Assembly: GCA_026419575.1 (NCBI GenBank)
Contig: JANZZC010000025.1
Span: 1 to 34,520 of the forward strand
Direction: 5' to 3'
DNA length: 34,520 nucleotides
Source: Thermomicrobium sp.
GTDB taxonomy: Bacteria; Chloroflexota; Chloroflexia; Thermomicrobiales; Thermomicrobiaceae
Position 1 is the stretch's first letter. Every line of letters starts with the position of its first letter. The notes under the pieces were generated by a model. It searched no databases. It had not been told where the DNA came from and saw only the letters and a program-made list of their open reading frames with translations. A program made the position numbers and the translations under genes. Below are positions 16,652 to 34,520 of the stretch, piece after piece.

Positions 16652-18997
<2,346 letters not shown>

Positions 18998-19040
18998 CGA
19001 TAGCAGAACCGCGTGGGATCGAGTGAAGGGGTTGGGAACG

Positions 19041-20270
19041 GTGACGCTCAGCATCATGCGCGCCCCGCGCACGTTCTTCACGTCCGAGTCGGTGACGGAG
19101 GGACATCCGGACAAGCTGTGCGATCAGGTGTCGGATGCCGTGCTCGATGCGGTGCTCGCGCAGGACCCAGCCGGGCGGGTGGCGTGCGAGGCTGCCACGA
19201 CGACCGGGCTCATGATCGTCATCGGAGAGATTACGACGAGCGCGCGCGTCGACTTCGCCGAGGTCGCGCGACAGGTCGTGAGCGAGGCGGGATACACGTC
19301 GTCCGAGTACGGCATCGACGGACGTACGATGGGGGTCATCGTCTCCGTCAAGGAGCAGGCACCGGAAATCGCCCAGGGGGTGTCGGAGTCGCTCGAGGTT
19401 CGCGAGGGTATCGCGGTCGACGAGTTCGACCGTATCGGAGCCGGCGATCAGGGGATGGTCGTCGGGTTCGCCTGTACCGAAACGCCCGAGCTCATGCCGC
19501 TGCCGATCGCGCTCGCGCATGGACTGGTGCGTCGCTTGGCTCAGCTTCGGAAGTCCGGGCAACTCTCCTACCTCCGGCCGGACGGGAAGAGTCAGGTGAC
19601 GGTCGAGTACCGATACGGACGGCCGGCACGCGTGGCGGCGGTCGTGCTCTCGGCGCAGCACGATCCGGACGTGTCGCAGGCGCAGCTCCGCCGTGATCTC
19701 GTCGAGGCGGTGATCCGGGAGGTGATCCCGAGCAGCCTGCTCGATGCGGAGACCCAGATCCTCGTGAATCCGAGCGGGTCGTTCGTGCTCGGTGGACCCC
19801 GCGCGGATGCCGGTATGACCGGCCGTAAGATCATGGTCGACACCTACGGCGGCATGGCACGGCACGGGGGCGGAGCGTTCTCCGGGAAAGATCCGACCAA
19901 GGTCGACCGCTCGGCGGCCTACGCGGCGCGGTACGTCGCGAAGAATGTCGTGGCAGCAGGACTCGCGGAGCGCTTCGAGATCCAGATCTCGTACGCGATC
20001 GGGCGGGCCCGACCGGTGGCGATCCACGTGGAAACCTTCGGCACCGGGAAGATCGACGACGAGCGCCTCGTTGAGCTGGTGCAGCGGCACTTCGACCTGC
20101 GCCCGGCGGCGATCATCCACCAGCTCGGTTTGCGGAAACCGATCTATCGGCAGGTCGCCGCCTACGGGCACTTCGGCCGCCCGGATCTCGACCTGCCGTG
20201 GGAGCGAACCGACAAAGCGGAGCTGCTGCGTGCGGAGGCAGGACTGGTGGGGAGCGTGCCGGACCGGTGA
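19041..20270 (+). CDS. metK: S-adenosylmethionine synthase MetK
   Basis: The 409-aa enzyme makes S-adenosylmethionine from methionine and ATP. Landmarks: [25 protein letters not shown], the central EIARGVSE-like region, [97 protein letters not shown] and a C-terminal [15 protein letters not shown]. The start is not certain: GTG 19041, with AAGGGG upstream, is preferred; ATG 19056 also lies in frame, and a frame extends to GTG 19023. The gene belongs to the mtnA-ahcY set and is followed by an SDR whose possible upstream GTG overlaps the metK stop by 4 bp. Confidence 0.95.
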
Positions 20271-23870: not shown

Positions 23871-24917
23871 TCACCCTCGGGCGCTCATCTGCTTCGTCAC
23901 CGCCTCGCGGAGTCCCTTCATGTAGCCGATCGCGAAGAGTCTCCCGAGCATCATGTACCCCGGTTCGCTGTTCGGCTCGCCCTCCATCGTCGGGACATGG
24001 TCGGGACGCATCACGCCGCTGAAACCGACCTCGTAGTAGGCCTTCATCGCCTCGTACATGTCGGTTTGGCCGTCGTCCTGAAAGGTCTCGATGAAGCGCG
24101 TCGGAGTGCCGCGGACGTCCCGGAAGTGGACGAAATGGATCTTGTTCTGCTTCCCGAAATGCCGGATCCACTGCGGGACGGGGACACCCATCGTGGAGAT
24201 CGTGCCCTGACAGAACGCGAGTCCATGGGCCGAACTCGGGTACAGGTCGAGGGCACGCTGCAAGGCCTCGGGGGTGACGAGGATCCGCGCGATGCCGCGT
24301 AGGGAGGGAACCGGCGGGTCGTCCGGGTGGAGGGCCAGCTTGACACCGACCTCTTCGGCGACCGGGACGACGGCGTCCAAGAAGTAGCGGAGACTTCCCC
24401 AGAGCTGCTCTTCGGACACCGTACCGAGTTCGGTCAGGCCGGCGCGCTCCATCAGTTCGTGATCGTAACTCGTCGTCAAGGCACCGCCGCGGGTCGGTGT
24501 GGTGACCGACGTGCGTGCCCAGTTGATGACGGCCATCCAGTTCCAGCACCAGACCGGAATCTCGAGCTTGCCCATGTTCCGGAGAAGCGTGATGACCCAC
24601 TCGATCTCTTCGTCTCTTCCGGGGAGGCCCAAGCGTGTGCGGTGCATTGGCGGCGATGCCTCGATGACCGAGACGGTGATACCAGCCTCGCGGAAGCGTT
24701 GGACCATGAGGAGCAGGGGCATGAAGTCCCACGGACGGTGCTCTTTCGGTGGCACATCGATCGGAACGATCGGCTGGGGAACACCGGGCGGGTTGTAGGC
24801 CTGATGACCGCCGGCGACGTGACCGGGTAGGGTGGTCACCGCATGGGTCACACCCATCTGGAGAGCGAGCTTCCACCGTTCGTTCGGCCACGGTGGGAGA
24901 ATCAGTGCGAGTTCCAT
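23871..24917 (-). CDS. uxuA: Mannonate dehydratase UxuA
   Basis: The 348-aa product is a TIM-barrel mannonate dehydratase that converts D-mannonate to 2-keto-3-deoxygluconate in the hexuronate (glucuronate) pathway. Recognisable parts: VIEASPPMHRTRLGLPGRDEEIEWV, VWCWNWMAVINWART, the metal/substrate site VKLALHPDDPP, the HGLAFCQGTISTMG and IHFVHFRDVRGTPTRFIETFQDDGQ segments, and DHVPTMEGEPN. The start ATG 24917 has a perfect AAAGGAGG site 6 nt upstream. It is divergent from an SDR gene that may serve the same pathway. The product feeds 2-keto-3-deoxygluconate kinase and aldolase, neither of which is in the window. Confidence 0.92.
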   Translation of the reverse strand: MELALILPPWPNERWKLALQMGVTHAVTTLPGHVAGGHQAYNPPGVPQPIVPIDVPPKEHRPWDFMPLLLMVQRFREAGITVSVIEASPPMHRTRLGLPGRDEEIEWVITLLRNMGKLEIPVWCWNWMAVINWARTSVTTPTRGGALTTSYDHELMERAGLTELGTVSEEQLWGSLRYFLDAVVPVAEEVGVKLALHPDDPPVPSLRGIARILVTPEALQRALDLYPSSAHGLAFCQGTISTMGVPVPQWIRHFGKQNKIHFVHFRDVRGTPTRFIETFQDDGQTDMYEAMKAYYEVGFSGVMRPDHVPTMEGEPNSEPGYMMLGRLFAIGYMKGLREAVTKQMSARG

Positions 24918-28032: not shown

Positions 28033-29013
28033 TCAGCGAGCGACCTCCACGGGTGGAGTGCCGTGGGTATGGAACGTCGCGACCGTCTGCAGCCCCCAAG
28101 CCTGGCCGCGCTTGCGTTCCGCCTCCGTCCAGACGATCGGCTTCCAGTCCGGTGCGACGACCAGTCGGGCACCCGGGCAGCCGATCTCGATGCGATGACC
28201 GCCTGGCTCGATGACGTACAGGAAAACGGTCTGCTGCACGGCGTGCTTATGGGGACCGTATTCGATCTTGTACCCGAACTCGATCGCGATGTCGGCGGCC
28301 CGCAGCACTTCCTCTCGAGTATCGACGGCGTAGCAGACGTGATGGAAGCGGCCGCGCGCGCCGGTCGCGTCCTCGGTGACGGCGATCTCGTAGCCCTTGT
28401 TGTTGGAAGTGACCCAGGCTCCCTTCTCGGAACCGTCGTCGAAGATGATGCACTCCGTCAGCTTGAGCCCGAGGTACTGCTGCAGGAAGATGCGGGTCGC
28501 TCGCACGTCGGCCGCGAAGACGTTGATGTGATCGAGGCGACGAACGTTGCAACCGCGGGCCGGAAACCGCGAGGCCTGGTTCTTCAGCGCTGGCTTCGTT
28601 TCCGGCGTTGGCTGGTACCACTCCACTTCCCAGACGAGCTCACCGACGTGTCCGTCCGGCGTCCGGAACCGGTAGGCTGGACCGTGGCCAGCGTCGCCGT
28701 CGATCCAGCCGAGGCCGAGTCCGGACTGCTCGAGCATGGCCACTCGCCGTTGCAGCGCTTCCGGTGTGCTCACCCGGTAGGCGAAGTGTTCCATCGCCGG
28801 AACCGGCCCTGCAGTCAGCTTGAGCGTGTGATGGGCATAATCGTCCCATCCTCGCAGGTAGACCGAGTTCCCGCGCTGCTCCGTCACGTACATCCCCATG
28901 TACTCGACGAAGAAGTGAACACTTTCGTCGAGAACCGGCGTGAGGAGCTCGAGGTGGGCGAGATGGGCCATATCGAAACTCGGCTCGCCGATATAGAGCG
29001 TGACGTCGTTCAT
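28033..29013 (-). CDS. Extradiol ring-cleavage dioxygenase (catechol 2,3-dioxygenase-like, VOC fold)
   Basis: The 326-aa product is a two-domain type I extradiol dioxygenase that opens an ortho-diphenolic ring next to the hydroxyl groups using Fe(II) and O2. The N-terminal domain begins with MAHLAHLELLTPVLDESVHFFVEYMGM and GNSVYLRGWDDYAHHTLKL. The C-terminal domain carries the three metal ligands: His162 in RRLDHINVFA, His224/225 in GRFHHVCYAVD and Glu276 in GGHRIEIG. VOC-fold enzymes usually act on catechol, biphenyl-diol or homoprotocatechuate; here the operon suggests a carboxylated diphenol such as protocatechuate or gallate. ATG 29013 has GGGGAGG upstream. It is the last gene of the four-gene operon. 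Confidence 0.88.
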   Translation of the reverse strand: MNDVTLYIGEPSFDMAHLAHLELLTPVLDESVHFFVEYMGMYVTEQRGNSVYLRGWDDYAHHTLKLTAGPVPAMEHFAYRVSTPEALQRRVAMLEQSGLGLGWIDGDAGHGPAYRFRTPDGHVGELVWEVEWYQPTPETKPALKNQASRFPARGCNVRRLDHINVFAADVRATRIFLQQYLGLKLTECIIFDDGSEKGAWVTSNNKGYEIAVTEDATGARGRFHHVCYAVDTREEVLRAADIAIEFGYKIEYGPHKHAVQQTVFLYVIEPGGHRIEIGCPGARLVVAPDWKPIVWTEAERKRGQAWGLQTVATFHTHGTPPVEVAR

Positions 29014-29062
29014 GTCTTACCTCCCCTGCGTCGTGGACGGATCGGCTGCTGAACCCCCGACC

Positions 29063-29725
29063 TCACCGTTGCCCCTCGAGGACCTTACGCAGACCGTGGA
29101 TATCGTAGCTGAGTTCACCGGCCTGCAATCGCTCGCGCATGCGCGCCTCGCGCTCGGCGCGAGCGCGTGCCGCCTCGAGAACGTCCACCGCTCGGCCACG
29201 CTCGACGACGACCGCCCCGTCGTCGTCCAGGACGACGAAATCGCCCGGCTCGATCCGTGCGCCGCCGACCGTGACCGGCACCTCGAGGCCGCCGACCTTG
29301 TCCTTCGTCGCACCCCGGACGCGAACGAAGCGAGTCCAGACGGGAAGGTCCATCGCCCGTAGTTCGTCGACGTCGCGAACTGCTGCGTCGACGAGGAGCG
29401 CAGCGGCTCCGCGCACCTTGGCTTGGATCGCCAGGAGCTCGCCGACGAGGGCGACCGGCTCCGGCTCGGGCATCGTGATGACCAGTACCGCGCCTGGATA
29501 GACGCGCTCCATGACCGCGTGCACCATGAGATTGTCGCCCTGACCGCACAAGACGGTCAGAGCCGGTCCGGCGACGCGCCGCCCGGGGATGAGCGGGACG
29601 AGCGGAATATCGACCAGTCCTCGTCGACCGGATGCCTCGTAGACCGTCGCCACACCGAGTTCCGCGAAGGCACGGGAAAGTTCGGCGATCGCGGCCTGGT
29701 CGATATCCTGACGTCGTTCGGCCAT
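29063..29725 (-). CDS. 4-carboxy-4-hydroxy-2-oxoadipate aldolase-like protein (RraA/LigK family)
   Basis: The 220-aa product is an RraA-fold protein like LigK/ProA/GalC, which cleave 4-carboxy-4-hydroxy-2-oxoadipate to pyruvate and oxaloacetate at the end of the protocatechuate 4,5- and gallate pathways. It has VATVYEASGRRGLVDIPL, AGPALTVLCGQGDNLMVHAVM, LLVDAAVRDVDELRAMDLPVWTRFV with the Arg-Asp pair used for substrate and metal, and the PGDFVVLDDDGAVVV segment. RraA itself, the RNase E inhibitor, is about 160 aa and lacks the extra C-terminal helix seen here (AARARAEREARMRERL). ATG 29725 has GGAGGG 7 nt upstream. ATG 29746, which overlaps the galB stop (TGATG), would add seven residues. A four-gene operon context supports the aldolase call. 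Confidence 0.86.
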   Translation of the reverse strand: MAERRQDIDQAAIAELSRAFAELGVATVYEASGRRGLVDIPLVPLIPGRRVAGPALTVLCGQGDNLMVHAVMERVYPGAVLVITMPEPEPVALVGELLAIQAKVRGAAALLVDAAVRDVDELRAMDLPVWTRFVRVRGATKDKVGGLEVPVTVGGARIEPGDFVVLDDDGAVVVERGRAVDVLEAARARAEREARMRERLQAGELSYDIHGLRKVLEGQR

Positions 29726-29745
29726 CGAGCTACCCTCCGATCGCA

Positions 29746-30477
29746 TCAGCCGTGACCGGGCAGGTCGCGGGCGACGAGCGGTGTGACGCGCTGGAAGGCC
29801 TCCGCGTAGCGGATCTCCTTGATTCCGGAAATCCGCCGCGCGTGGTTGGCGCGCCGCTCCCCGAGTTCCGCGTAGTAGCGCTGGAGGTACTGCTGGGATG
29901 CCATGACCTGCATGGCGGCGAGCTTCTGTTCCCAAACGGGAGTGATGTCGACGAACACGTTGGGGACGAAACCGCAGAGCTCCGGCTGGTGGGGCTCGAA
30001 GTAGTAGAGCGGCGGGGGCTCCACCGTTTCGAATGCGCTCGCGACACCTGCCCCGGAAGACAGCAAGCGGGCCTTCTGCACCACCTCGTTGGCGACAGGA
30101 TGATCCGGATTGAACGGATCGACCGGGGTGTGGGTGACGATCGCCTCGGGACGCAGATCGCGGATCAGCTGCGCGAGCCGCTCGATCGCCTCCCGGTCGA
30201 CCTCGAGCGGATAGTCGCCCATGTCGTAGCAGACGAAGCGTGCGCCGAGGATCTGCGCTGCACGTTCGGCCTGTTCGTGGCGGATCGCCTTGACCCGTTC
30301 GACCGTTTGACCCGGCTCCTTCCAGAGTTCGCCGGACTCGCCGCGTTCGCCGTACGACAGCGCGAGAACCGTCGCCTCCCCGCCGTTCGCGGTCACGAGC
30401 GCGATCACCCCGGCGGCACGCCACACGAAGTCGGCCGCGTGGGCGCCGACCACCAACAGTCGTCGGACTCCGGTCAT
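29746..30477 (-). CDS. galB: 4-oxalomesaconate hydratase-like protein (PIG-L/GalB family)
   Basis: The 243-aa product is a PIG-L-fold zinc enzyme of the GalB type. Most PIG-L deacetylases have a HPDDE-type motif at the first metal site; this one has VVGAHAADFVWRAAG, as in Pseudomonas putida GalB, followed by ALSYGERGESGELWKEPGQ, CYDMGDYPLEVDREAIERL, VTHTPVDPFNPDHPVANEVV, YFEPHQPELCGFVPNVFVDIT and ANHARRISG. GalB hydrates 4-oxalomesaconate to 4-carboxy-4-hydroxy-2-oxoadipate, the substrate of the LigK/GalC aldolase encoded just downstream. The start ATG 30477 overlaps the amidohydrolase stop by 4 bp (ATGA); GGAGGG lies 4 nt upstream. Assignment rests on recalled sequence similarity and on context. 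Confidence 0.85.
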   Translation of the reverse strand: MTGVRRLLVVGAHAADFVWRAAGVIALVTANGGEATVLALSYGERGESGELWKEPGQTVERVKAIRHEQAERAAQILGARFVCYDMGDYPLEVDREAIERLAQLIRDLRPEAIVTHTPVDPFNPDHPVANEVVQKARLLSSGAGVASAFETVEPPPLYYFEPHQPELCGFVPNVFVDITPVWEQKLAAMQVMASQQYLQRYYAELGERRANHARRISGIKEIRYAEAFQRVTPLVARDLPGHG

Positions 30478-31397
30478 AGATCCCTCCCCGTCGCCAAGCG
30501 AACGGTATTCCGTACGGCCATCGTGCGGACCTCGTCCTCGCTGAAGCCAGCCTCGAGCAACCGGTCGGCGAAGAGCGCGAGCCCGTCTTCGACCGGCGGA
30601 TTGTCCGGCTGTCCGAGATCGGTACTGAGCACCACACGCTCCGGACCGACGGCGCGGATGTGGGAGACGGCGGTCTCCCAAGAGACCTTCCCGGAATAGA
30701 GGGGGGTGAAGCAGTGTTCCATGATGGCACCCATGTCCGCGAGCGCGATCTGATCGTCACGGGAGAGCGCCTGCGACGGAAAATCGGGATGCGTCACCAC
30801 GACGTGTCGGACGCCTTCCTCGCGGGCAGCGCGCACCACGGCGAAGATCTCGTCCCGTCCGAGGTGGCCGGTGGCGAGCACGAGGTCGTGCCGGGCGACG
30901 ATCCGCAGGACCGCACGGAGCTCGGGGACCACGTCGCCGTCCGGACCGAGGACCTCGACGGGGGGGACATCGAAACCGGCTTCACGCATCTCGCGTTGGA
31001 GGCGAGCCCAATAGGGAAGCTTGGCGTCCGGTGGGGCATGGCGGAGATGCTCCCGTTCGTTCGCCGCATCGACCGACGGGAGCCAGACCAGGCGGGCGCC
31101 TTCGCGCGCTGCGATCTCGACGGCGAGCGGATTCAGGCCGCCGACCGCTCGGTTGAGCGTGATCGAGCCGAGGACTTGAACCCCGGGAACCGCTGCGCGT
31201 ACGACCGCGGCGCGCTCGGCAGTCGGCACGTAATGGGATTTGATGACGTAGCCGGCCAGGCCGACCTCGAGAAAGCGGCGGGCGAGATCGATGTCCGCGA
31301 TCCGCCGAGGCATCACGTCCGGGCCGGAATGAACGTGCAGGTCGAAGGCGCCGCGTACCAGTTCGCGTGCCCGTTGCGAGGGAGTCGGGTGCGACAT
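30474..31397 (-). CDS. Amidohydrolase-fold protein, DUF6282-like, aromatic pathway
   Basis: The 307-aa protein has the amidohydrolase-type HxH metal site in GAFDLHVHSGPD (His21, His23) and further His/Asp positions in VIKSHYV, LATGHLGRDEI, HVVVTHPDFPS and VVLSTDLGQPDNP, which complete a binuclear-type TIM-barrel site. It resembles DUF6282-type proteins. In protocatechuate 4,5-type pathways amidohydrolase-superfamily members serve as pyrone dicarboxylate lactonase (LigI) or hydratase (LigJ); this protein could open a lactone or act on another pathway intermediate. It is first in the operon, behind an extended -10 promoter, and its stop overlaps galB by 4 bp. A hairpin in its leader may hide the ribosome site (GAAAGG ... 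GGAAAG before ATG 31397). Confidence 0.75.
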   Translation of the reverse strand: MSHPTPSQRARELVRGAFDLHVHSGPDVMPRRIADIDLARRFLEVGLAGYVIKSHYVPTAERAAVVRAAVPGVQVLGSITLNRAVGGLNPLAVEIAAREGARLVWLPSVDAANEREHLRHAPPDAKLPYWARLQREMREAGFDVPPVEVLGPDGDVVPELRAVLRIVARHDLVLATGHLGRDEIFAVVRAAREEGVRHVVVTHPDFPSQALSRDDQIALADMGAIMEHCFTPLYSGKVSWETAVSHIRAVGPERVVLSTDLGQPDNPPVEDGLALFADRLLEAGFSEDEVRTMAVRNTVRLATGRDL

Positions 31398-31487
31398 CTT
31401 TCCAACCTTTCCGCCTGCCGGTATCCGAGTTGGCGTGCTCCGGCGCGGGAATAGGCGAGGTTGGACGACCGGAGTTCCCTCGTCTGA

Positions 31488-31493
31488 ATTGTA
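31488..31493 (-). promoter_or_regulatory. Extended -10 promoter of the aromatic operon
   Basis: On the minus strand TATGCTACAAT gives a TGnTACAAT extended -10 box about 91 nt upstream of the amidohydrolase start and after the SBP terminator. No strong -35 is needed with this extension. In the leader TCCAACCT (about 31465-31458) can pair with AGGTTGGA (31408-31401) next to the start codon. Confidence 0.6.
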
Positions 31494-31531
31494 GCATACG
31501 CTGGGAGAGGATTTACACCTGAAACTTGAAC

Positions 31532-31563
31532 GACCCGGGCCGGGCAGCGAACCGGCCCGGGTC
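31532..31563 (-). terminator. Terminator after the substrate-binding protein gene
   Basis: GACCCGGGCCGG (31532-31543) and CCGGCCCGGGTC (31552-31563) form a perfect 12-bp stem with an 8-nt loop, 16 bp past the stop on the minus strand, followed by the T-containing GTTCAAGTTTC. It separates this gene from the downstream operon. Confidence 0.75.
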
Positions 31564-31578
31564 GCAAGATACGCCCAC

Positions 31579-32766
31579 TCAGAGCTGCTTGGCGGCGTTC
31601 TCGACGAAGCTGAAGTCGACCAGCTGCTCGACGGGGACCGTTCGCTGGATCTTGCCGCGCTGTTGCCACAGTTGCTGGGCGTCGGTCAGCTTGCTGACGT
31701 CGAACTTCCCGGTCTCGGAGACGCCTGGCCAGGTCATCTGCTCGTAGAGCGCCTCGTCCTTGAGCGGCGTGCGGTTCTTGAGGATTTGCACGACTTCGGC
31801 ACGGATGTTCGGATCCTTAAGGGCCTGGAGATAGTACCGTGCTCCCTTGAGGTAGCCGACGAGGAAGGCTTCGAGGAGCGGCCGATCCTTCACCATCGGC
31901 GGGCCGGCGACGATCACCGAGATCGGGAAATTGTCGCCGATGATGTCGATCAGCGCGTCGCCGCTCACGATCGGCACGGCGGCACCGAGTTGCTTGGTCG
32001 CGATCGTCGCGTACGGCTCGACCAGCTCGGCTGCCTCGACGGCTCCGTTCTGCAACGCGGCAGGCATGTCAGGAAGGCGGATGAGCTGCATCTTGATATC
32101 GTCGAGCGTGAGCCCTCCCGACTCGAGCACGGTCTTGAGTTCGAGGAGATCAATGCCCGCGTCGCTCGGCATCGCGAGCGAGCGACCGCGGAGGTCAGCG
32201 ACCGTCCGCACCCCTTGGTCGTAGAGTTCCTTGCGCACCGCGTAGGCGTGATAGACGTTGCCGCGTCGGAGGGCTCCCTCGCCAGCGACGATCGTCACGT
32301 CGATGCCTTGCAGTTTGGCGTTCACGAGCGCGGCGACGATCGCACCGCTGAAGAGGTGAAGGTCGCCGACCGCCAGGAGCGGGATCACCTCGCCCGGCGT
32401 CCCCTGCGTCGTGACGAGCTCGACATCCAGCCCGACCTCCTTGAAGAAGCCCTTCTCGGCCGCGATGAAGTTCCCAGCCTCTTCCGTCGCGAGCGCGACC
32501 CGCATCTTGAGCTTGCGGGCCTGGAGCACCGTCGGCGAGGCGGCTGGGGTGGGTGCCGCAGTGGGTGTCGCGGGAGGCGCGGTCGGCGTCGCGGCCGGCG
32601 CTGCAGTCGGTGTCGCTGCCGGTGCGGCGGGCGTCGGCGAGGCCGGCACCGGCGTGGGAGTCGCTTGGCTGCCCCCGCAGGCCGCCAGGAGCGCACTCGC
32701 TGCGACGCTCGCGGCTCCAGCGGTGACCCACAGAAAATGGCGACGAGTCACGCGTCGGATCGTCAC
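31579..32766 (-). CDS. NMT1/THI5-like ABC substrate-binding lipoprotein (NitT/TauT type)
   Basis: The 395-aa product begins with a Tat-type signal (TRRHFLW) and lipobox LLAAC (Cys30), so it is lipid-anchored on the outside. A Pro/Thr/Ala linker (about 35-80) with ATPTAAP-like repeats follows. The mature part starts KLKMRVALATEEAGNFIAAEKGFFKEVGLDVELVTT, then a GDLHLFSGAIVAALV ligand-pocket region, PSDAGIDLLELKTVL and EPYATIATKQLG, typical of NitT/TauT (SsuA/NMT1-like) binding proteins that feed nitrate, sulfonate, thiamine-precursor or aromatic-acid importers. No permease or ATPase gene is beside it, so it is an orphan in this window. GTG 32766 lies 4 nt after GGAGGGGG. Its position between an O-demethylase gene and an aromatic operon suggests an aromatic-acid ligand. 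Confidence 0.85.
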   Translation of the reverse strand: MTIRRVTRRHFLWVTAGAASVAASALLAACGGSQATPTPVPASPTPAAPAATPTAAPAATPTAPPATPTAAPTPAASPTVLQARKLKMRVALATEEAGNFIAAEKGFFKEVGLDVELVTTQGTPGEVIPLLAVGDLHLFSGAIVAALVNAKLQGIDVTIVAGEGALRRGNVYHAYAVRKELYDQGVRTVADLRGRSLAMPSDAGIDLLELKTVLESGGLTLDDIKMQLIRLPDMPAALQNGAVEAAELVEPYATIATKQLGAAVPIVSGDALIDIIGDNFPISVIVAGPPMVKDRPLLEAFLVGYLKGARYYLQALKDPNIRAEVVQILKNRTPLKDEALYEQMTWPGVSETGKFDVSKLTDAQQLWQQRGKIQRTVPVEQLVDFSFVENAAKQL

Positions 32767-33009
32767 GGTTCCCCCTCCTCACGTCGGTTACTTCGATCGC
32801 ACACTCTCTTCCCGCTTAGTCGCCGTTCCCATGATCTGACGCAGCGGGAAGTCGAATCGCTCCACCCAACGTCGATCTCCCTATACCTGATTTCGGCTTC
32901 TACCCTCCTTCGTAGTTACCTTTCGGAAAACACTCTCCGTATCTCCGGCCGATCTCGTGCCTCCATGCCCTGTTCTTGTATTCTGAACACGATACGTCGC
33001 GTCGCCTTC
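32767..33009 (-). other. Long 5' leader of the substrate-binding protein gene
   Basis: From the predicted transcript start near 33009 to the GTG at 32766 the leader is about 240 nt. It contains no gene. A 9-bp stem, CTTCCCGCT (32851-32843) with AGCGGGAAG (32816-32808), encloses 26 nt, and a short CTAC/GTAG hairpin lies further upstream. Length and structure suggest a regulatory RNA, but it does not match a riboswitch consensus I know. A riboswitch class cannot be named. Confidence 0.45.
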
Positions 33010-33015
33010 GATGAT

Positions 33016-33044
33016 ATACTAGAAAACTGGAGTCACCGTGTCAA
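33016..33044 (-). promoter_or_regulatory. Strong sigma-70 promoter for the substrate-binding protein gene
   Basis: On the minus strand TTGACA (33044-33039) and TAGTAT (33021-33016) are 17 bp apart. It lies downstream of the O-demethylase terminator and drives the 240-nt leader. Confidence 0.75.
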
Positions 33045-33099
33045 GAAGAGGATGGCGGCGCTGCTGAGCCTGTGCTCGGGCGCCCTGGGCTGAAACGAG

Positions 33100-33133
33100 C
33101 GAGCGGCAGCGAGCTCCGTCTCGCTGCCGCTCG
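33100..33133 (-). terminator. Terminator after the O-demethylase gene
   Basis: A 14-bp stem (33100-33113 with 33120-33133, GAGCGGCAGCGAG core) with a 6-nt loop lies 40 bp past the stop codon. The 3' flank on the minus strand is T-containing (GTTTC). A 14-bp palindrome, CCTCCGATCGGAGG, lies just before it (33141-33154). Confidence 0.7.
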
Positions 33134-33173
33134 AACGACTCCTCCGATCGGAGGACCGACGTCGTCAGCAGGG

Positions 33174-34520
33174 TCAGCCTGCTTGTCGCGCTCGACGCAC
33201 CTGCTCGCGGTAGCGGCGAGCCGGCTCGGCGTAGGGCGCCGGCCCGACGGTGACCCACCCCTCGGTCTGCACGTGCCGTTCCACCGACGGCTTGCGCGAC
33301 CCACCGTTCGGCTCGCCCCACACCACCCGCAGCCGCGTCCCTTCCTTGGCGTACCGCTCGTCGATGGTCGCGAGCGAGAGCACCCGCTCCTCGTTGGAGC
33401 TGAAGCCCGTCCACATCGAGAATCCGACCACCTCGCCGGCGTCGTTGAGGACGGCGTCATACATCCAGGTCGCGTACTGCGCCAGCGGCAGGTCGAAGGA
33501 CTTGTAGCGCTGCCCCTTGGGCTGGGGGAACAGGCTGGCCATCACCCGCGCCGCCTCTTCCGGATCCCAGACCAGCGTCACCTTCTTGCGGTGCGGCTGG
33601 TCCTTCATCCGCTCCAGCGCCGCTCGCCCGACGAAGTCGTGGTCGAACTTGATGAGTCGCCCGTACCCCAGGTCCCAGGGGGTCAGGTAGTAGTCCTCGA
33701 TGTTCGGGCTGACGAAGCTGCCACCCAGCGAGCCGACCGCCTCGTAGGCCGTGGCCGGCAGCCACTCCCGGTACTTCTGCAGCTCCGGACTCGTGTAGAT
33801 CGCCGGCAGCGGGTTCGGAATCCACCCCGACTCGAGCGTGTTGGTCGCATACGCCCGGCTACCCACGTGGCGGATCCCGAACTCCTTGCCGGCCTCGAGG
33901 ATAGCGGCCTTGACGGCGGGGCCGTCGGCGAAGTCACCGAAGAACTCGGCGCCGGAGACGCCGCTCATGCCGTGGTGGAGGAGACCGACGGTCTTGCCGG
34001 CGATCTGGACGCGGGTGAAGTGGAAGAAGGGGATCTCCGGGGGCGGGCCGCCGAGCAGCTTCTCGAGCACCTTGGGAGCATTGGGCCCCTGGATCTGGAA
34101 GCGGAAGGTCTTACGCGGCTTGTGGGGATCGGCGACCGACCACTCGTCGCGCTCGTAGCTGACGTTGGCCCCGCTCGTCTCGGCGTGGAACTGCACCCAG
34201 TTGTGCACGCTCGGCCGACCGACGAGCTGGAAGGTGCCGTCTTCCAGGTAAAAGAGAATCACATCGCCAATGATATATCCCTCGGGGGAGACGGGAATGT
34301 ACTGCTTGGCCTGGCCGGGCTCGAAGCCTTCGAAGGAGTTGATGCCGAGCTGGCGAAGGAGGGCGAAGGCGTCGGGGCCGCGCAGGAAGAGGTCGGTCAT
34401 GTGGTAGGAGAGGTCGAAGAGGCAGACCGTCTCCCGCCAGGCGTGCTGCTCGTCCCGCCAGTTGGTGAACTCGGGCGGAACGACCGGGTAGACGCGCGCT
34501 CCCGTCTGGTTGTTGTACAG
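33174..34520 (-). CDS. Tetrahydrofolate-dependent aromatic O-demethylase-like protein (LigM/DesA, GcvT fold), 5' end outside
   Basis: The reading frame is open to the window end, so the N-terminus is missing; 448 residues are visible. The fold is the aminomethyltransferase (GcvT) type. Segments such as VYPVVPPEFTNWRDEQHAWRET, LFDLSYHMTDLFLRGPDAF, QYIPVSPEGYIIGDVILFYLEDG, GLLHHGMSGVSGAEFFG, EDYYLTPWDLGYGRLIKFDHDFVGR and VVGFSMWTGFSSNEERVLSLATID fit the LigM/DesA group, which moves the methyl group of vanillate, syringate or 3-O-methylgallate to tetrahydrofolate. True GcvT proteins are about 360-370 aa and share only the core. Context with an aromatic ring-cleavage operon supports demethylation; a sarcosine- or dimethylglycine-type demethylase stays possible. 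The internal ATG at 34400 is not the start, because similarity continues upstream. Confidence 0.82.
   Translation of the reverse strand: MYNNQTGARVYPVVPPEFTNWRDEQHAWRETVCLFDLSYHMTDLFLRGPDAFALLRQLGINSFEGFEPGQAKQYIPVSPEGYIIGDVILFYLEDGTFQLVGRPSVHNWVQFHAETSGANVSYERDEWSVADPHKPRKTFRFQIQGPNAPKVLEKLLGGPPPEIPFFHFTRVQIAGKTVGLLHHGMSGVSGAEFFGDFADGPAVKAAILEAGKEFGIRHVGSRAYATNTLESGWIPNPLPAIYTSPELQKYREWLPATAYEAVGSLGGSFVSPNIEDYYLTPWDLGYGRLIKFDHDFVGRAALERMKDQPHRKKVTLVWDPEEAARVMASLFPQPKGQRYKSFDLPLAQYATWMYDAVLNDAGEVVGFSMWTGFSSNEERVLSLATIDERYAKEGTRLRVVWGEPNGGSRKPSVERHVQTEGWVTVGPAPYAEPARRYREQVRRARQAG

Follow-up and report, generated by a model that had tools for sequence, protein, structure and literature searches.

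A probable VOC-fold replacement for the LigB-type ring opener in a Thermomicrobium gene cluster for methoxylated aromatic acids

Which enzyme opens the aromatic ring in a bacterial gene cluster that encodes GalB- and LigK-type enzymes, but whose single ring-opening candidate has the VOC fold? The question is raised by a contig of Thermomicrobium sp. (GenBank assembly GCA_026419575.1, JANZZC010000025.1). This complete contig (G000:C30) of 34,520 bases, referred to here as the window, belongs to a 2.7 Mb genome in 174 contigs. Six genes between positions 28033 and 34520, all on the minus strand, are transcribed in the order LigM/DesA-like, binding protein, DUF6282, GalB, RraA/LigK and VOC. Judging from the sequence comparisons described below, we consider it likely that the six genes encode the breakdown of methoxylated aromatic acids and that a VOC-fold dioxygenase feeds GalB and LigK in place of the LigB-fold enzyme (GalA/DesB/LigAB). 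The features, listed by position, are as follows.

28033..29013, minus strand: type I extradiol dioxygenase with the VOC fold, member of the Lys206/Tyr208 clade and proposed ring opener of gallate type (PF00903 in two stretches; TIGR03211, 313.1 bits; 9wgj, 361 bits; clade tree)
28390..28398, minus strand: codons 206-208 of the dioxygenase, carrying the clade signature (Lys206 at 28396-28398, Tyr208 at 28390-28392; from alignments)
29063..29725, minus strand: 4-carboxy-4-hydroxy-2-oxoadipate (CHA) aldolase of LigK/GalC type, RraA fold (NF006731, 205.9 bits; 3noj, 163.5 bits)
29746..30477, minus strand: GalB-type 4-oxalomesaconate hydratase, PIG-L family (PF02585; 5cgz match; AHAADFVWR stretch)
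30474..31397, minus strand: DUF6282 amidohydrolase-superfamily protein, first of the four-gene set (PF19799)
31579..32766, minus strand: NMT1/SsuA-type ATP-binding-cassette substrate-binding lipoprotein, probable uptake component (PF09084/PF13379; position kept in L026-L029)
33174..34520, minus strand: LigM/DesA-type tetrahydrofolate-dependent aryl O-demethylase, N-terminus lost at the contig end (GCV_T PF01571; NF047633 and NF047885 scores; 5x1i match)

The DUF6282 and GalB genes overlap by 4 bp, with 20 bp between GalB and RraA and 49 bp between RraA and VOC. The original prediction had described four genes on one strand with these junctions, a LigM/DesA-like gene nearby and an orphan binding protein. 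The coordinates and spacings are confirmed; the other two genes are present on the same strand, with their families established by profile matches. No permease or ATPase gene for the binding protein was found between 28033 and 34520.

The proposal is carried mainly by the gene neighbourhoods of a distinct VOC clade. An alignment and tree were built from 53 VOC rows: the window, L026-L031, L041-L044, L009, L010, 18 of 85 matching plasmid records and 20 genome stretches, two of which hold two VOC genes each. Left outside the tree and the counts were L025, L035-L040 and L045-L073 (mostly shorter or second copies; their residues 206 and 208 were read separately), as well as a partial VOC match of <700 bases in L041. 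Lys206 and Tyr208 occur together in 32 of the 53 rows, and a branch supported at 100/99 separates these 32 from the rest. A gal gene (GalB, LigK/GalC or GalD) is found in the stretch for 28 of the 32 clade rows, compared to none of the 21 relatives; GalB itself is present in 26 clade rows, including the window. After clustering at 80% identity, the link to gal genes holds for 10 of 11 clade clusters and 0 of 15 others, with a Fisher P of 2e-6 that describes the chosen set only. Genes for HpaB, DmpG, acetaldehyde dehydrogenase or FAH show the reverse distribution, being found with 15 of the 21 non-clade rows (DmpG in 11) and with one of the 31 fetched clade loci. The host genome's own paralogs, on contigs C62 and C112, both fall among the non-clade rows, the latter with HpaB. 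It is noted that C112 (L009) carries this second VOC dioxygenase (48%, His type) beside an HpaB-like hydroxylase and, as read by eye, a COG2159-type amidohydrolase, NMT1-type binding proteins and transporter genes, which makes it another uncharacterised aromatic locus.

The window enzyme is a type I (VOC) protein, not a LigB-fold (PF02900) one: it matches PF00903 twice, and its H162, H225 and E276 align with H155, H214 and E267 of homoprotocatechuate 2,3-dioxygenase (HPCD, 1q0c), the metal ligands of the 2-His-1-Glu site. Further HPCD-equivalent residues are kept as N164, W200, H257 and Y266. The two-domain fold and the metal ligands are shared with HPCD and with catechol 2,3-dioxygenase (TIGR03211). 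However, Tyr208 aligns with HPCD His200, the second-sphere catalytic histidine, and Tyr252 and Gly303 align with Arg243 and Arg293, which bind the substrate carboxylate. The tyrosine is found in all 32 clade rows and histidine in all 21 others. The surroundings also differ, the window gene having gallate-pathway neighbours in place of meta-cleavage ones. The protein scores just under the TIGR03211 cut-off (313.1 vs 320.2 bits); the C62 paralog, which lies in a classic meta-cleavage operon, also misses it slightly (317.5), so this shortfall says little. The structure model of the VOC protein has a confidence score (pLDDT) of 48.2, too low for use of the active site.

The assignments made earlier for GalB and the LigK-type aldolase are borne out. 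The best solved match of the GalB protein is 4-oxalmesaconate hydratase (5cgz, 218.6 bits), followed by a deacetylase at 34.6 bits, and an AHAADFVWR stretch stands where the aligned deacetylase reads PHPDD. Against NCBIfam, it matches deacetylase models only, all below cut-off. By these comparisons the PIG-L protein is nearest to GalB and not to the deacetylases. The RraA/LigK protein belongs to RraA (PF03737), passes the equivalog cut-off of NF006731 (205.9 vs 179 bits), stays below that of the stricter TIGR02798 (190.9 vs 304.5) and matches the solved 3noj with 163.5 bits. A deacetylase reading of GalB and a generic RraA-regulator reading of the aldolase are ruled out by the 5cgz, NF006731 and 3noj scores; the original prediction had named such a grouping as what would overturn it.

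The LigM-like protein matches the vanillate/3-O-methylgallate O-demethylase LigM (5x1i) with 510 bits. The protein, whose N-terminus is cut off, stays just under the LigM equivalog cut-off of NF047885 (571.0 vs 580) and under that of NF047633 (621.2 vs 800). Its Tyr224 and Arg102 align with the catalytic Tyr247 and Arg122 of LigM. In the sister genome G001, a formate-tetrahydrofolate ligase gene and a MetF-like gene (PF02219 passed; NCBIfam MetF models below cut-off) precede ligM. This arrangement, which supports the demethylation reading, resembles the ligM-metF-ligH operon of SYK-6 (PMC6888825).

The original prediction had proposed to look for this gene order in other genomes, and it recurs in relatives and is rearranged in Armatimonadota metagenome-assembled genomes (MAGs) and Thermus. 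The six-gene order is kept in four genomes of the same genus (G001, G002, G003 and G006), with LigM at the contig end in three of them, and the five genes from the binding protein to VOC are kept in G005, on a contig ending in the binding-protein gene. LigM and the four-gene set are also kept in G009 and G013, which represent two other genera of the family. The recurrence of one order in same-genus genomes and in two other genera argues that the arrangement is not due to chance. No GalB was found in G004, of the same genus. In two Armatimonadota MAGs and a related MAG (L042-L044), genes for a DUF1932-like protein, DUF6282, GalB, RraA, VOC and LigM are consecutive, with formate-tetrahydrofolate ligase nearby; a GntR-like gene, read by eye, stands between DUF6282 and GalB in L042 and L043. 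A Thermus oshimai plasmid has the order VOC-GntR-DUF6282-PIG-L-CHA aldolase-NAD(P)-dependent oxidoreductase, near PobA. Judging by these rearranged loci, the four genes appear to have been transferred between phyla as one unit.

Proteobacterial members of the clade point to the substrate. The order GalB-VOC-GalC-GalD, followed by a gene of the tannase/feruloyl esterase family, is found on a plasmid of Agrobacterium tumefaciens 186 (walnut), and the same four genes occur on plasmids of A. vitis, Rhizobium Q54, Thioclava and a Paracoccaceae strain. On two Pantoea piersonii plasmids, some 3 to 6 kb separate GalB-aldolase-GalD from the VOC gene. The Pseudomonas putida KT2440 gallate genes are galTAPRBCD, and the VOC gene of the proteobacterial clusters would then take the place of galA. 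Such GalD-containing clusters suggest gallate as the substrate. The window shares GalB- and GalC-type enzymes with KT2440 and would follow the same logic, from gallate through oxalomesaconate and CHA to pyruvate and oxaloacetate. It differs in having a VOC-fold ring opener where KT2440 has the LigB-fold GalA, and DUF6282 in the place of GalD. Compared to Sphingobium SYK-6 (DesA, LigM, DesB, DesZ, LigAB, LigU, LigJ, LigK), a tetrahydrofolate-dependent O-demethylase and a LigK-type aldolase are common to both, and Thermomicrobium sister genomes have formate-tetrahydrofolate ligase and MetF-like genes beside the demethylase as SYK-6 does. In contrast, the window has a single VOC dioxygenase for the LigB-type ones, GalB for LigJ and no dehydrogenase among its six genes.

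DUF6282 could complete the pathway at the step of GalD. The protein matches PF19799, a Pfam family of unknown function, has no match in NCBIfam and does not belong to the PrpF family (PF04303) of GalD. Its model (mean pLDDT 85) is an amidohydrolase-type barrel that a fold search places near dihydroorotase, phosphotriesterase and lactonase structures; LigI is absent among the best 50 matches listed, which excludes nothing. Residues H21, H23, K53, H178, H203 and D260 are among those invariant in eight orthologs, and the invariant set is that expected of a metal-dependent amidohydrolase. Across the 32 clade rows, GalD is found in 11, DUF6282 in 15 (window included), neither in 6 and both in none. 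PF04303 was not found in nine genomes of family f1 or in the six genomes searched of the Chloroflexota genus g88. Since cleavage of gallate by a known enzyme yields oxalomesaconate only in the keto form (PMC8431788), an isomerase is expected in the pathway. Because DUF6282 and GalD never share a locus, DUF6282 may perform the step of GalD or hydrolyse pyrone dicarboxylate; the latter reaction would be required with 3-O-methylgallate or protocatechuate as substrate. It may thus be a candidate oxalomesaconate tautomerase standing in for GalD, or a pyrone-dicarboxylate hydrolase.

We infer the substrate, the products, the step of DUF6282 and the role of the binding protein as follows. Tetrahydrofolate would receive, through the LigM/DesA-like enzyme, the O-methyl groups of syringate or 3-O-methylgallate, or else those of vanillate. 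The VOC enzyme would cleave the resulting gallate beside a hydroxyl-bearing carbon, giving 4-oxalomesaconate directly without a dehydrogenase. DUF6282 would tautomerise oxalomesaconate to the form used by GalB, or would hydrolyse 2-pyrone-4,6-dicarboxylate arising from 3-O-methylgallate. GalB would add water, and the LigK-type aldolase would then release pyruvate and oxaloacetate. The core of the original prediction, namely demethylation, an unusual VOC dioxygenase, GalB and an aldolase leading to pyruvate and oxaloacetate, is in this form strongly supported at the level of sequence by synteny, the clade, the gallate-like clusters and the genes for formate-tetrahydrofolate ligase and MetF. On our best reading, the VOC enzyme would open gallate (or 3-O-methylgallate, possibly protocatechuate) to oxalomesaconate. 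In Thermomicrobium, gallate or 3-O-methylgallate derived from syringate is favoured for two reasons: the operon is not accompanied by a dehydrogenase, and a search at E 1e-8 for relatives of the Armatimonadota DUF1932-like protein gave none in six genomes (G000, G001, G002, G006, G007 and G009), with a weak match (1e-10) in G013.

Two alternatives differ from this proposal only in the substrate of the VOC enzyme. If it were a protocatechuate 4,5-dioxygenase, vanillate would be demethylated to protocatechuate, ring opening would give the semialdehyde, a dehydrogenase would oxidise this to pyrone dicarboxylate, and DUF6282 would hydrolyse the latter to oxalomesaconate. We regard this route as doubtful, although PobA lies beside the Thermus oshimai cluster and a lactonase-like amidohydrolase gene overlaps the DUF1932 gene in Roseomonas. 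LigM acts on vanillate as well (PMC6888825). A DUF1932-like protein of 6-phosphogluconate-dehydrogenase type is encoded in 19 of the 31 fetched clade loci (L042-L044, L074-L079, L081-L083, L086, L088, L091, L095, L096, L105 and L111). The label denotes tblastn similarity to an annotated Agrobacterium protein; the DUF1932 Pfam profile matched nowhere, control genomes included, and the search was repeated with the protein query. However, the Thermomicrobium cluster has neither a dehydrogenase gene nor, in the six genomes, such a relative (the weak one is in a seventh, G013), and the GalD-containing clusters point to gallate. In addition, the Agrobacterium GalD cluster has the DUF1932-like gene where gallate needs none. 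It is noted that the DUF1932-like protein is present in GalD clusters, where no oxidation step is expected. Protocatechuate is possible as the substrate in Thermus, with PobA, and in Armatimonadota, with the DUF1932-like gene in the row. LigAB acts on both gallate and protocatechuate, so one enzyme may serve both. In the other alternative, 3-O-methylgallate itself is the ring-opening substrate of the VOC enzyme and yields pyrone dicarboxylate or the methyl ester, with DUF6282 as a LigI-like lactonase or an esterase. The predicted barrel near lactonase structures and the routes of this kind described for SYK-6 (PMC6888825) fit it. In 11 clade rows, however, GalD is present and DUF6282 absent, and gallate would be the simplest substrate there; we find this alternative rather unlikely.

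A more radical alternative is that the VOC protein is an ordinary catechol 2,3-dioxygenase lying beside the operon by chance, and that a LigB-family protein elsewhere opens the ring for GalB and LigK. The 313 bits to the catechol 2,3-dioxygenase model and the presence of one LigB-family gene in the genome would allow this. That gene, the sole PF02900 match of the host genome (66 bits), lies on contig C163 (L003, 8327-9280, minus strand); its product has no NCBIfam match above cut-off, and no aromatic-pathway neighbours were seen by eye. A LigB-family gene is present in all eight further genomes of the family searched, seven of which are without GalB, so the Thermomicrobiales LigB does not track the pathway. 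Conversely, 12 of 20 carrier genomes, confirmed as carriers by the Lys/Tyr residues, gave no PF02900 match (among them G003, which is 54% complete; no completeness value is given for G449-G452), and two LigB-family queries at E 1e-8 found no match in the clade stretches except in Roseomonas. A LigB enzyme elsewhere is therefore rejected as ring opener on its distribution, and the co-regulated LigAB/GalA gene that the original prediction had named as a possible objection reduces to a gene on another contig that does not track the cluster. Together with the clade-wide association with gal genes and the change of His to Tyr at the catalytic position, this makes a chance neighbour very improbable.

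Several observations nevertheless weigh against a VOC-fold gallate dioxygenase. The closest characterised families are catechol 2,3-dioxygenases, and the nearest solved protein, 9wgj (361 bits), which shares the N-K-x-Y signature and the ERKRGQAWG stretch with the window protein, bears the deposited name 'Catechol 1,2-dioxygenase'. Unlike the window protein, 9wgj looks by eye like the Ser255/Tyr283 subtype of genus g88. The 53 rows were hand-picked by similarity (nearest relatives plus a spread) and are not a random sample. The stretch is without any gal gene in four of the clade rows, which come from a Bacillota MAG (L041), Pantoea sp. At-9b (L080), Chimaeribacter (L090) and a Sphaerobacter-type genome with LigM adjacent (L092). 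L041 has a regulator, a transporter, an FAH-type gene and an aldehyde dehydrogenase within 10 kb; its genome holds a DUF6282-GalB-RraA cluster on another contig, and that of L092 a distant GalB elsewhere. No GalB was found at E 1e-20 in the Sphaerobacter MAG of L039, which carries a clade gene, or in the plasmid records of L076, L077, L080 and L090. A class III dioxygenase is present in Roseomonas in addition to the VOC gene. The Thermus oshimai locus contains PobA, a protocatechuate maker, and an aldehyde dehydrogenase, so some clade members may open protocatechuate. The 'tannase/feruloyl esterase' of Agrobacterium need not be a tannase, and genomes G449-G451 (behind L042-L044), which have DUF6282, also carry PrpF-family (PF04303) genes elsewhere.

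AromaDeg (PMC4250580) classes gallate and protocatechuate 4,5-dioxygenases in the LigB superfamily, and no description of a VOC-fold gallate dioxygenase was found among the matches listed in the open literature. A Bacillus VOC catechol 2,3-dioxygenase is reported to be inactive on pyrogallol and protocatechuate (PMC8671467). The window looks like one of many carriers of an apparent VOC-fold replacement for the gallate ring opener, which would alter a known pathway and not constitute a new kind of system. A wider proposal, for which we see nearly as much promise as doubt, is that gallate ring opening has a second origin, in a VOC-fold enzyme that replaced its catalytic His by Tyr and acquired the Lys, and that it reached at least six phyla together with its pathway (Chloroflexota, Armatimonadota, Bacillota, Deinococcota, Pseudomonadota and Actinomycetota), DUF6282 being a non-orthologous oxalomesaconate tautomerase that replaced GalD. 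As the three hydroxyls of gallate make the extradiol and intradiol products identical, the Tyr enzymes may no longer follow the classic extradiol mechanism, and the His to Tyr change is a natural test of the importance of the second-sphere base in extradiol chemistry. If the clade members are gallate dioxygenases, clade genes named 'catechol 2,3-dioxygenase' are misnamed, the use of gallate and syringate extends further, to thermophiles and plant-associated plasmids, a probably heat-stable ring opener is at hand for lignin work and DUF6282 gains a testable function.

A few neighbouring genes were noted. In G001, contig C11 (L032), a GalB gene (61%) adjoins one LigM-like gene and is ~7 kb away from a second. 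The locus also has an HpaI-type aldolase, a gene resembling 3-hydroxyisobutyrate dehydrogenase and what reads by eye as a Liv-type transporter, but no clade VOC gene; this is possibly a sister pathway with a different aldolase. In the window, S-adenosylhomocysteinase and S-adenosylmethionine synthetase seem, by eye, to be encoded by two genes at 17726-20270 (plus strand), ~8 kb away from the VOC gene, and similar genes stand one gene beyond LigM-VOC in the Sphaerobacter-type genome (L092). They are perhaps a sink for methyl groups. A gene at 23871-24917 (minus strand) is UxuA-like by eye; its copy in L028 (2497-3735) matches PF03786, and close relatives lie beside the cluster in L036, L037 and L040.

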